From assembly GCF_003177035.1 (NCBI RefSeq), contig NZ_CP029488.1, positions 2,666,001-2,730,000 of the forward strand: a DNA stretch of 64,000 nt, written 5' to 3'. The notes under the pieces were generated by a model. The model did no database searches. It saw only the letters and a program-made list of their open reading frames with translations, and was not told the DNA's origin. The stretch is from Salinisphaera sp. LB1. Its GTDB lineage: Bacteria; Pseudomonadota; Gammaproteobacteria; Nevskiales; Salinisphaeraceae. Shown here piece after piece: positions 40,321-42,775 of the stretch (its first letter is position 1; each line of letters begins with the position of its first letter). Made by a program: the position numbers and the translations under genes.

Positions 40321-40881
40321 TCACCACATCAGGTCGTCGGGGACTTCATATCCGGCGTAGGGATCGTCCGGATCGGTCGGGCGCTTGTCGGCTTCGGTGA
40401 TGCGCGATACCGCCTTCGGGACCAGCGCCTCCAGGCGCTCGGCGGTCTCGACGTCGACCAGTGAGGTCTGCCCGTCATAGCGCACGATGGCCAGTCGGCC
40501 GTCGGCCAGCCGCCGACGCTGGTCGCGGCTGACCGGCAGGCGGCGGATCTTGCCCTTGACGGTATAGCTGTAGGGCGGCTCGTCGGCTTCCGGCGCCTCG
40601 ATGGCGATGCGGTTCTCGTTGATGATCTGGATCACCTGGCGCTTGCGCTCGCGCTGCTGACGTTCGGCGTTGGCCGCTTCCGCGCGCTTGCGGTCGGCTT
40701 CGCGCTTCGCGGCGGCCGCGGCCTCGACTTCCTGCGACAGCTTGCGCTGTTCCTCATCGCCGGTATGGCCCGCCCGGCGTGCCGCCTTGTTGCGGCGCGC
40801 CTTGTCGTGGCGTGCCTTCTTGGCCTGTTTCGGCTTGGCGATACCGGCCTTGAGCAGCTGGTCCTGTAGCGACTGACCCAT
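40321..40881 (-). CDS. DUF2058 family protein (YaiL-like)
   Basis: 186 residues, very rich in Lys/Arg/Gln/Ala. The N-terminus MGQSLQDQLLKAGIAKPKQAKKARHD-like opening is diagnostic of DUF2058. A long charged coiled coil (about 40-85) and a small C-terminal domain (YSYTVKGKIRRLPV, LAIVRYDGQTSLVDVETAERL) follow. Family members are annotated as nucleoprotein or polynucleotide-associated; no catalytic motif is seen. A repeat element begins 36 bp upstream of the start. Confidence 0.85.
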   Translation of the reverse strand: MGQSLQDQLLKAGIAKPKQAKKARHDKARRNKAARRAGHTGDEEQRKLSQEVEAAAAAKREADRKRAEAANAERQQRERKRQVIQIINENRIAIEAPEADEPPYSYTVKGKIRRLPVSRDQRRRLADGRLAIVRYDGQTSLVDVETAERLEALVPKAVSRITEADKRPTDPDDPYAGYEVPDDLMW

Positions 40882-40917: not shown

Positions 40918-41190
40918 CTAGGGCCTGTGGCCGTTTCGTACACGTGCCGCGTTGGAGACCGCAAATCCGTCGAGACAAGGCGCGCGTCGCAGGTCGTGGC
41001 GAGCCACGATCAAGACGCGCAACGCCGTATCGGCGGATTTGCGGCCCAACCCTTCGGGACAAGCGCTGTTTTGCGGCAATCCAGCGTTGTAGCTCTCTCA
41101 CGTAGAACGACTACGCTACGTTCGCTACGCCTCGTCTTGCCGCAAAACAGCGCTTGGCGCGGACGCGGACGAAACGGCGACAGGCCCTAG
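40918..41190. mobile_element. Structured repeat element with inverted ends and CTAG duplication (MITE-like)
   Basis: A gene-free 273-bp block. The ends are an 18-base inverted repeat with one mismatch (GGCCTGTGGCCGTTTCGT at 40922-40939; complement at 41169-41186). Each is flanked outside by CTAG (40918-40921 and 41187-41190), like a 4-bp target duplication. Inside are a perfect 20-bp inverted repeat (40+ loop) at 41060-41079/41137-41156 and another with CCGCAAATCCG/CGGATTTGCGG arms. A further copy of the left end (GCCTGTGGCCGTTTCGTAC) lies directly beyond at 41191-41209. No transposase frame is visible. Confidence 0.65.
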
Positions 41191-41216
41191 GCCTGTGGCC
41201 GTTTCGTACGAGGCCG

Positions 41217-42413
41217 CTACCAGTCGATGTCGCAGCAAAGGACCTGCGTCGGCGGGTTGCCGCGCGCGATCGAGAGCGTGACACACATGTAGGCGCCCGT
41301 GCTCGACAAATAGGGGCGCGAGGTCTGCAGGCGGTACGGTTCGGCCATGGCGGCGCGGAAATACTGGCGTCGATACCAGGTGCCGCCCGAGGTGTCGGTG
41401 ATCGGACCGGCATGGAAGATGCGGCGGGTACGCAACGAACGGCCGTCGACATGCATGGTCTGTTCGCCGCGCTCGTTGAGAATATAAAAGCGCGCGGCGC
41501 GCGCCAGGGTCATCAGCTGGCGCGCGGCGGCATGCGGTGCCTCGCCGCGGCCGATGCGCTCGACGGCGTCGCGGAAGGCCTCGGCGTAGGGCGCAATGCG
41601 ATCCGCCTCGATGCGCTCCTCGATCGTGGTCGTGGTCTCGAAATGACGGGTGATATCGCTGAGTATCGGCAGGCCGTCGATCTCGAGGTGATTAATTTCG
41701 CGCGACGGCCGCGCGAAGTAGAAGCCCTGGACAAAGTCGATATCGGCATCCATGGCGAGCAGTGCCTGCTCATGCGTCTCGATACCTTCGGCTAGTACCA
41801 GGGAGCCGGCTTCGTGAATCAGCGACACGAGGTTGGGCAGCATCTGCCGCAGCCGGCCGGTGCGGTGTTGTTCGGCTTCCACGATCAGGCTGCGGTCGAG
41901 CTTGATGATGTCGGGCGCGAGCCGCCAGATACGGTCGAAATTGGAATGGCCGGTGCCGAAGTCGTCGAGGGCGACCAGCGCGCCGATGGAGCGGAAATAG
42001 TCGACGGCGGCGAACAGCTGCGGCTCGTCGTCGATCGCGCCCTCCACGATCTCGATGACCAGACGCTGCGGCGGTACGCCGGCCTCGCGCAACGCCCTCG
42101 TGAGCGTTCCGTCATGATACCAGCGGTCGGCGATGGTGCTGGGGTCCAGGTTGAGGAAAAGCCAGCGTTCTTCCGGCGCCTGGGCCGAGAAGTTGCGGAT
42201 GTGCAGGCTTTGGCAGAGCGTATCCAGCAGGCGAATGTCGCCGCGCTCGGCGGCTTCCCGCATGACATCGGCGGGTGCATGCGCGTGGTTGTCGACATCC
42301 GTCGAGCGCAGTAGCGATTCGAAGCCGACGCTGCGTCGGTGGCACAGGCTCAGAATGGGCTGGAAGACGCTGTGTAGCTGGTAACCGTTGTACTGCGCCG
42401 TGATCGCGTTCAT
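41217..42413 (-). CDS. EAL-domain cyclic-di-GMP phosphodiesterase with C-terminal sensory domain
   Basis: 398 residues from ATG 42413. The N-terminal EAL domain (about 10-240) keeps the catalytic set: Glu32 (motif FESLLR in place of EAL), Asn in FLNLDPS, Glu in VIEIVEG, DDFGTGHSNF, Lys in IKLDRSL, LAEGIET and FVQGFYFARP. It should hydrolyse c-di-GMP. The C-terminal part (about 250-398; ARAARFYILNERGEQ, GGTWYRRQYFRAAM) resembles the PAS-like domain that follows EAL in YkuI-type proteins and probably binds a signal. No membrane helix is visible. It is divergent from htpX. Confidence 0.85.
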   Translation of the reverse strand: MNAITAQYNGYQLHSVFQPILSLCHRRSVGFESLLRSTDVDNHAHAPADVMREAAERGDIRLLDTLCQSLHIRNFSAQAPEERWLFLNLDPSTIADRWYHDGTLTRALREAGVPPQRLVIEIVEGAIDDEPQLFAAVDYFRSIGALVALDDFGTGHSNFDRIWRLAPDIIKLDRSLIVEAEQHRTGRLRQMLPNLVSLIHEAGSLVLAEGIETHEQALLAMDADIDFVQGFYFARPSREINHLEIDGLPILSDITRHFETTTTIEERIEADRIAPYAEAFRDAVERIGRGEAPHAAARQLMTLARAARFYILNERGEQTMHVDGRSLRTRRIFHAGPITDTSGGTWYRRQYFRAAMAEPYRLQTSRPYLSSTGAYMCVTLSIARGNPPTQVLCCDIDW

Positions 42414-42775
42414 GGCAGCTGCGGCGCCCGCCACTGGCGCCCGGCCGGAGCACGGCTCGATACGCGCAAGTGCGCGTGTCGGCCTGGCGGTCCGGCCCGG
42501 TGGCGACAAGGCGAAGGCGAAAGCGGATCGGTCATGGCTCGTCTCGGTAGACCAGGCCGGCGATTGTCCCGGTCACGCCGCTCATCGGGCCTCGTGGGTG
42601 GGCTGGGGTATCGATGGCGTGCACGTCTTGTCGCGTATTGTCACGGACTGTTAATGAAGGATACGCGCAAGATCGGGGCGAATCGAGCATTTCGTACGTC
42701 ATCTTGATTCGGTTGCGAACGCCGCTATCTTGAGCATGAGTGTTCGGGTTGCTTGTTTGAAAGAGGGTGCTAGAA
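42414..42775 (+). promoter_or_regulatory. Divergent promoter region of the EAL gene and htpX
   Basis: 362 bp without a gene. For htpX, TTGATT (42704-42709) and TATCTT (42726-42731) are spaced by 16 bases, giving a plausible sigma-70 promoter about 45 bases before the ATG. A sigma-32 site was looked for and only CTTGATT was found. GAGGGTG just before 42776 is the likely ribosome site. Confidence 0.45.

Follow-up and report, generated by a model that had tools for sequence, protein, structure and literature searches.

Between two co-directional genes of Salinisphaera sp. LB1 lies a repeat, picked out in an initial annotation as a structured element with CTAG at both ends, which raises the question of what kind of element it is, what moves it and whether the sequence between its ends has a role of its own. 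Positions are given within the window, the whole 64,000-nucleotide stretch of DNA that was analysed. On one side is a gene for a DUF2058 protein (40321..40881, minus strand), with the element 36 bp upstream of its start, and on the other a gene for an EAL-domain protein (41217..42509, minus strand), the stop codon of which is 7 bp from an additional copy of the element's left end. Taken together, the sequence features described below make it highly probable that 40918-41190 is one copy of a gene-less, non-autonomous miniature transposon (MITE).

CTAG is indeed found at 40918-40921 and 41187-41190. The MITE proper occupies 40921..41187 on the plus strand (267 bp, GGGCC...GGCCC) and lies between CTA (40918..40920) and TAG (41188..41190), target sequence in which the TA is, from comparison of flanks, the presumed 2-bp target duplication. 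The inverted ends next to CTAG form a 28-nt pair (40918-40945 / 41163-41190) with 89% complementarity, including the left (40921..40945, plus strand) and right (41163..41187, minus strand) terminal inverted repeats, which match the ends of insertion sequences (IS) of the IS5 type. Enclosed by these is a core of two composite hairpins. Hairpin 1 (40958..41047, minus strand) carries a conserved motif in reversed form, ACAAGGCG...CAACGCC, and takes in an internal hairpin at 40959-40976 / 41027-41044; hairpin 2 (41062..41152, plus strand) has the motif as GCGTTG...CGCCTCGTCTTGCC; a perfect 20-bp inverted repeat (41060-41079 / 41137-41156) falls mostly within it and is itself part of a 25-nt pair with 92% complementarity. 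Alongside covariation, the two hairpins are defined by scores of 84.4 and 85.2 bits, respectively, against the covariance model R1 described below, values that are not independent of the model, both hairpins being among the 12 used to build it. A linker mini-hairpin, CCCTTCGGG in the window and CCCGAAGGG in other copies, is located at 41050..41058. The perfect internal repeat and the further hairpins of the initial annotation are therefore all present, and when folded as single-stranded DNA, 40918-41190 reaches -108.2 kcal/mol, compared with a mean of -59.1 for dinucleotide shuffles, none of 200 of which was equally good (z = -11.6).

The element is present at no fewer than 40 places scoring over 100 bits in the LB1 genome (4.14 Mb, one contig), with identities ranging from 100% to 72%; this count is a lower bound, as 40 of 99 first-look candidates were scored. 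Both ends were identified in 35 of the 40, which are thus short, multicopy and bounded by terminal inverted repeats, and the five places without one end were excluded from counts of flanks. A genome-wide search with the end pattern, as the annotation had proposed, gave 116 matches at two or fewer mismatches, against none for a reversed control pattern, and part of these matches have no partner end nearby. Element matches were found in all 14 genomes of the genus Salinisphaera searched, LB1 included. The 35 LB1 copies and 60 near-full copies from other genomes of the genus, taken from among the matches listed, of which there were more and for which at most 12 candidates were scored per genome, together form the 95-copy set used below.

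Some variation between copies is modular. By eye, for example on comparing the window copy with L035 and L040, copies look like mosaics in which each fixed place is filled by one of a few internally complementary modules, such as GATTTGCGG or CCCCTAGTAATTTTTTTATGGGCGG, as if hairpin arms had been swapped between copies. Minimal versions of 53 nt (L149, 1475-1527) and 50 nt (L157, 1501-1550), in genome G002, consist of the two ends alone as one near-perfect palindrome. An 84-nt fold-back at L070 (478-561) looks as if it were made of the MITE's right half, inverted, which suggests template switching within the palindrome.

The sequences flanking the copies bear on how the element inserts. TA is present on both sides of 59 of the 95 copies (15 of 35 in LB1), including exact CTA/TAG flanks in 36 (9 of 35 in LB1); a further pattern, CTA|element|TAA (the CTA/TTA type), flanks 14 of the 95 and fits a 2-bp TA duplication. 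The 4-bp CTAG duplication originally suggested is not borne out by these counts of flanks; instead, the duplication looks like the 2-bp TA within a YTAR/CTAG target. The base adjoining GGG is A on both sides in 89 of the 95 copies, and TA is missing on at least one side in 36. Either, therefore, the element includes A...T and is inserted without duplication, or hairpin-guided correction alters one flank.

Insertion is also evident from empty sites. Four of the six flank pairs queried match across the junction in other species, with clean empty sites for L017, L009 and L024 and a less clean one for L019, such that insertion is precise; the flank pairs of L016 and L020 had no junction-spanning match in other species. 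At L017, the empty site reads CTGG and the filled one CTG...CAG, which fits neither duplication alternative simply. L017 (LB1 1885577) and L020 (LB1 1518454) are seemingly inserted within the first codons of coding sequences, in frames that by eye are racemase-like and glutathione-S-transferase-like, after CTGCCTG and TTGCCTG, respectively. The annotation had held that a single copy, or copies lacking CTAG flanks, would speak against its reading. The former does not apply; the latter is seen in many copies, although the empty sites show real insertion.

The IS5 affinity proposed for the ends was confirmed by the discovery of a putative partner, through a pattern for ends not continuing into the MITE core. 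In Salinisphaera sp. Q1T1-3 and S. hydrothermalis C41B8, the same ends enclose an 860-bp IS, flanked by CTA/TAG and encoding a 267-aa transposase with the Pfam domains DUF4096 and DDE_Tnp_1, which scores 248.6 bits against the NCBIfam IS5-family model NF033580 (cut-off 110). The ends are thus common to the MITE and to transposase-encoding IS. Related transposases were detected in 8 of the 14 genus genomes (E <= 0.001). Among 68 named loci with a related transposase, 29 have an end pair, at up to three mismatches each, at IS distance; TA is found on both sides of 25 of these 29, whereas L222 (TT/TT), L231, L249, in which the ends are shifted by one, and L261 depart from this. Similar ends also occur on IS5-type elements of Pseudomonas and others. 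The LB1 genome has no match to the partner transposase at E <= 0.001; a profile search returned three transposase matches there, all below the curated cut-off, of which the highest-scoring contains a stop codon, and the end sequence does not occur nearby at three or fewer mismatches. An inverted end pair 2.2 kb apart (L068) was considered as an autonomous copy and rejected, as it contains frames that by eye are aldo-keto-reductase-like and LysE-like, and no transposase.

MITE ends appear largely to follow those of the partner IS by species, with exceptions. The variant TGTTGAGGTTT, found at the IS ends of S. hydrothermalis, was present in 16 of the 24 MITE ends fetched from that species and in 2 of 166 from the other 12 genomes. 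Both of these are the only two ends fetched from genome G003, where the IS pieces found end in TGTTGCCGTTT, leaving the variant in none of 164 ends outside S. hydrothermalis and G003. Likewise, TGTTGATGT, which the Q1T1-3 IS has in its right end, is shared by all six MITE ends from Q1T1-3 and by 9 of 184 others, namely 3 of 70 in LB1 and 2 of 8 and 4 of 8 in two other genomes. Across genomes with four or more copies, a deviation at one end of a copy recurs at its other end 54 times, compared with a mean of 14.7 and a maximum of 29 in 500 permutations; common ancestry within a genome could account for part of this excess.

The ends being those of IS5-family (NF033580-type) IS, we infer from them and from the flanks that the element is mobilised in trans by a resident IS5-type transposase, which would cut at GGG...CCC, and that insertion would be into YTAR targets with duplication of TA.

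This leaves the sequence between the ends. The fold of the 95-copy alignment consists of a terminal stem, hairpin 1, a CCC-loop-GGG mini-hairpin and hairpin 2, with Watson-Crick pairs in 9531 of 10520 pair cells. The core can be described as two hairpins of about 91 nt, usually inverted relative to one another and separated by about 13 nt, in which an internal-loop motif is near-invariant. Its relatives extend outside the genus. Five of six loci examined among weak matches in other families proved to be elements with other ends (L063-L067), and the sixth, L062, in a different genus within the family of Salinisphaera, has similar ends. Among the 12 hairpins of six loci (L063-L067 and the window), the motifs C.GCGTTG and CGCCT.G.C are invariant and 23 of 32 pairs show double changes.

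The covariance model R1, built from these 12 hairpins, was run at E <= 1e-4 on two overlapping samples. In the class sample it matched 105 of 369 genomes, spread over 84 of 271 genera, and in the phylum sample 101 of 398, spread over 48 of 213; the E-values are rough owing to a short calibration, and the counts were made without a shuffled-genome control. As 11 and 10 candidates, respectively, were scored per genome under stricter filters, the numbers of matches per genome are lower bounds. Of the 101 genomes matched in the phylum sample, 41 are in the element's own class; among the other 60, 49 belong to a single family (f211) and 11 are elsewhere, so the spread of the core outside the class rests on few families.

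The geometry around the core is nearly constant. An inverted partner hairpin is close by in 27 of the 30 best class loci, with one same-strand partner and two having none at threshold. Terminal repeats, which lie outside R1, surround the core in 32 of 35 loci, giving total lengths of 265-288, in a set comprising best hits per genome rather than a random sample and including L063-L067, which were used in building the model. They were also found in 26 of 28 further loci, likewise best hits per genome, 24 with lengths of 264-298 and two of 177 and 179, the best of three placements being kept for each locus. Fifty cores (49 loci and the window, omitting loci without a clear end pair and some with one) were compared: most are 195 nt long, and identity to the nearest neighbour is 64-97%, being at least 0.73 for 47 of them, as against a maximum of 0.61 for shuffled cores in 40 trials.

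By contrast with the core, the ends vary. The types seen are GGGCCTGTTAACACT, by eye the commonest, AGAGCCTATCCGTGAATAA, GGGCGTGTCATCATGAGAT (in the Salinisphaera genome G003), GGGAGACGCTGATTGAATCG, AAGGAAGATCTCATCTATTCG and TGTCCCGTCTGGCTAATTCG. Cores flanked by AGAGCC ends share 79% identity with the core of L345, which has GGCCTGTGAACACT ends, and the cores of L384 and L385 are 95% identical with ends differing at several positions; some end types, AGAGCCTATCC, GGGAGACGCTGATT and TGTCCCGTCTGG, look unrelated. Among the places listed in three carrier genomes, no inverted pair of AGAGCC-type ends was found at 0.7-3 kb. In four plasmid records containing a relative, no gene is listed beneath the match in a table restricted to coding genes, and a search of phage records with one copy, L385, gave no match. 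No earlier description of the element was found in the Rfam scans of the window and seven loci or among the titles and abstract openings listed from open-access papers, though other sources may contain one.

From these comparisons, the element is best described as a MITE with a core conserved far beyond the genus and ends that differ between lineages. The recurrence of the core in many proteobacteria, combined with differing ends, suggests that it has a function in its own right. Bacterial MITEs are usually viewed as IS ends around arbitrary filler. In this case it is the sequence between the ends that is conserved, the twin-hairpin core being matched in about a quarter of the genomes in each of the two samples, whereas the ends themselves vary. 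The nearly constant geometry and near-invariant loop raise the question of which factor needs the core, and the covariance model is now available for annotating the repeat.

One proposal is that the core adopts the form of a cruciform or of single-stranded hairpins, and so would hold the two ends together while making the internal loops, near-invariant GGCGTTG / CGCCTTG, accessible to a host factor; by virtue of these properties, the same core could travel with the ends of different transposases. We put this role forward tentatively, as having a little less than an even chance of being right. More doubtful still is the broader idea that the core is a selfish or functional module spread through the Proteobacteria by exchanging ends, exploiting several transposases, and that a conserved host factor, or else the transposition machinery itself, binds the loop.

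Covariation this strong, coupled with the near-invariant internal-loop motif, might also be expected of an RNA: the core could be co-transcribed and its hairpins processed or bound by protein, regulating mRNA stability or termination, with mobility only serving to spread it. This is compatible with the element being a MITE, and the window copy does sit between co-directional genes; moreover, passages of PMC2229807 record a proposal that transcripts of Neisseria MITEs are processed by RNase III. Against it, the hairpins are mutually inverted in the 27 of 30 loci noted above, and wobble pairs reveal no RNA-typical strand preference, with 223 G.T to about 195 A.C in the 95 copies, with three mainly T-G pairs excluded, and 56 to 109 in the 26 variable pairs of 68 hairpins. 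These counts do not look like selection on an RNA strand, though they are compatible with it. In Rfam, the only match to the window at gathering score was a tRNA, and at E <= 5 seven loci gave four weak hits to microRNA models, all below gathering. Overall, an RNA-level role for the core seems rather unlikely.

The similar numbers of G.T and A.C pairs would suit a core without function, in which covariation arose by hairpin-templated (quasipalindrome) correction in an old MITE lineage with drifted ends. This too is compatible with a MITE, and would be in keeping with both the deviations shared between left and right ends, far above permutation, and the occurrence of the linker loop in both orientations, CCCTTCGGG and CCCGAAGGG. 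However, such correction should have removed the mismatched internal loop as well, whereas few parts of either hairpin vary as little; the core length, 195 nt at the majority of the 50 loci, and the seemingly unrelated end types argue in the same direction. Overall, the absence of any function seems improbable.

The MITE interpretation, with a core that may be functional, can be set beside known systems. RUP (with IS630), Correia/NEMIS and ERIC, bacterial MITEs mobilised by IS, are, as far as they are covered in passages of PMC2229807 and PMC4133298, likewise short, multicopy, highly folded repeats with terminal inverted repeats and no transposase gene, and they have TA-type target duplications, like that presumed here. 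On the basis of those descriptions, the window element is set apart by its IS5-family ends, by two composite hairpins inside a terminal stem, by a core mostly of 195 nt and by the fact that this core is common far beyond one genus with different ends. The IS5-family IS of the NF033580 type in Salinisphaera, Pseudomonas and Methylomonas have closely similar terminal repeats and the same YTAR/CTAG targets, but encode a transposase, whereas the MITE encodes none and is alike only at the ends. Caulobacter CIR repeats also comprise two arms and a linker; in their description in parts of PMC2229807, with which the comparison was made, the motif is GANTC and there is no mention of a terminal stem around the arms.

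REPINs and BIMEs are similarly palindromic and numerous, and mobilisation of such an element by a RAYT (Y1 TnpA-REP), cutting a single-stranded hairpin at CT without duplication (CT^NN), was entertained, as many flanks can be read as CT|AGGG...CCCT|NN, cleavage by TnpA-REP at CT is described in passages of PMC8266576, Y1 transposase genes are present in 14 of 14 genus genomes and minimal palindromes of 50-53 nt exist, but it was abandoned as very improbable because the end matches near Y1 genes are chance-like, at three mismatches (8 of 8 loci in LB1 and 18 of 29 scanned in relatives, with no Y1 gene flanked by the repeat among these), and an IS5 partner was found, whose ends the element closely matches and largely tracks by species, no GTAG-tagged hairpin beginning the terminal repeat.

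The additional left end noted in the annotation is exact, 40922-40941 recurring at 20 of 20 positions in 41190..41209 (plus strand). Its suggested origin, in a tandem pair or an adjacent insertion, agrees with its being the remnant either of a local duplication or of a second insertion, the rest having been lost; both fit. It shares a GTGG variant with the window left end that is absent from the other left ends of the 35 LB1 copies, a link that is indecisive because a solo end at LB1 1547959 has GTGG too.

Finally, certain odd flanks have a separate source. At L028, L038 and L039, the CAA flank is supplied by an IS110-family IS whose own end exactly adjoins that of the MITE; it does not account for the other odd flanks. 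This IS is present in L183-L187 (LB1 445474, 1894619, 2037385, 1375700 and 4120655) and encodes a 358-aa transposase (L187:476-1552, minus strand) with the Pfam domains DEDD_Tnp_IS110 and Transposase_20. In four of these loci it terminates exactly at the MITE terminus, as ...GACACAA|GGG, and in the fifth at the similar GGGTCTGT, and thus the MITE end seems to be a target of this IS110-family IS. A junction of the same type as in L183-L187 is also found at L157, one of the minimal versions in G002.
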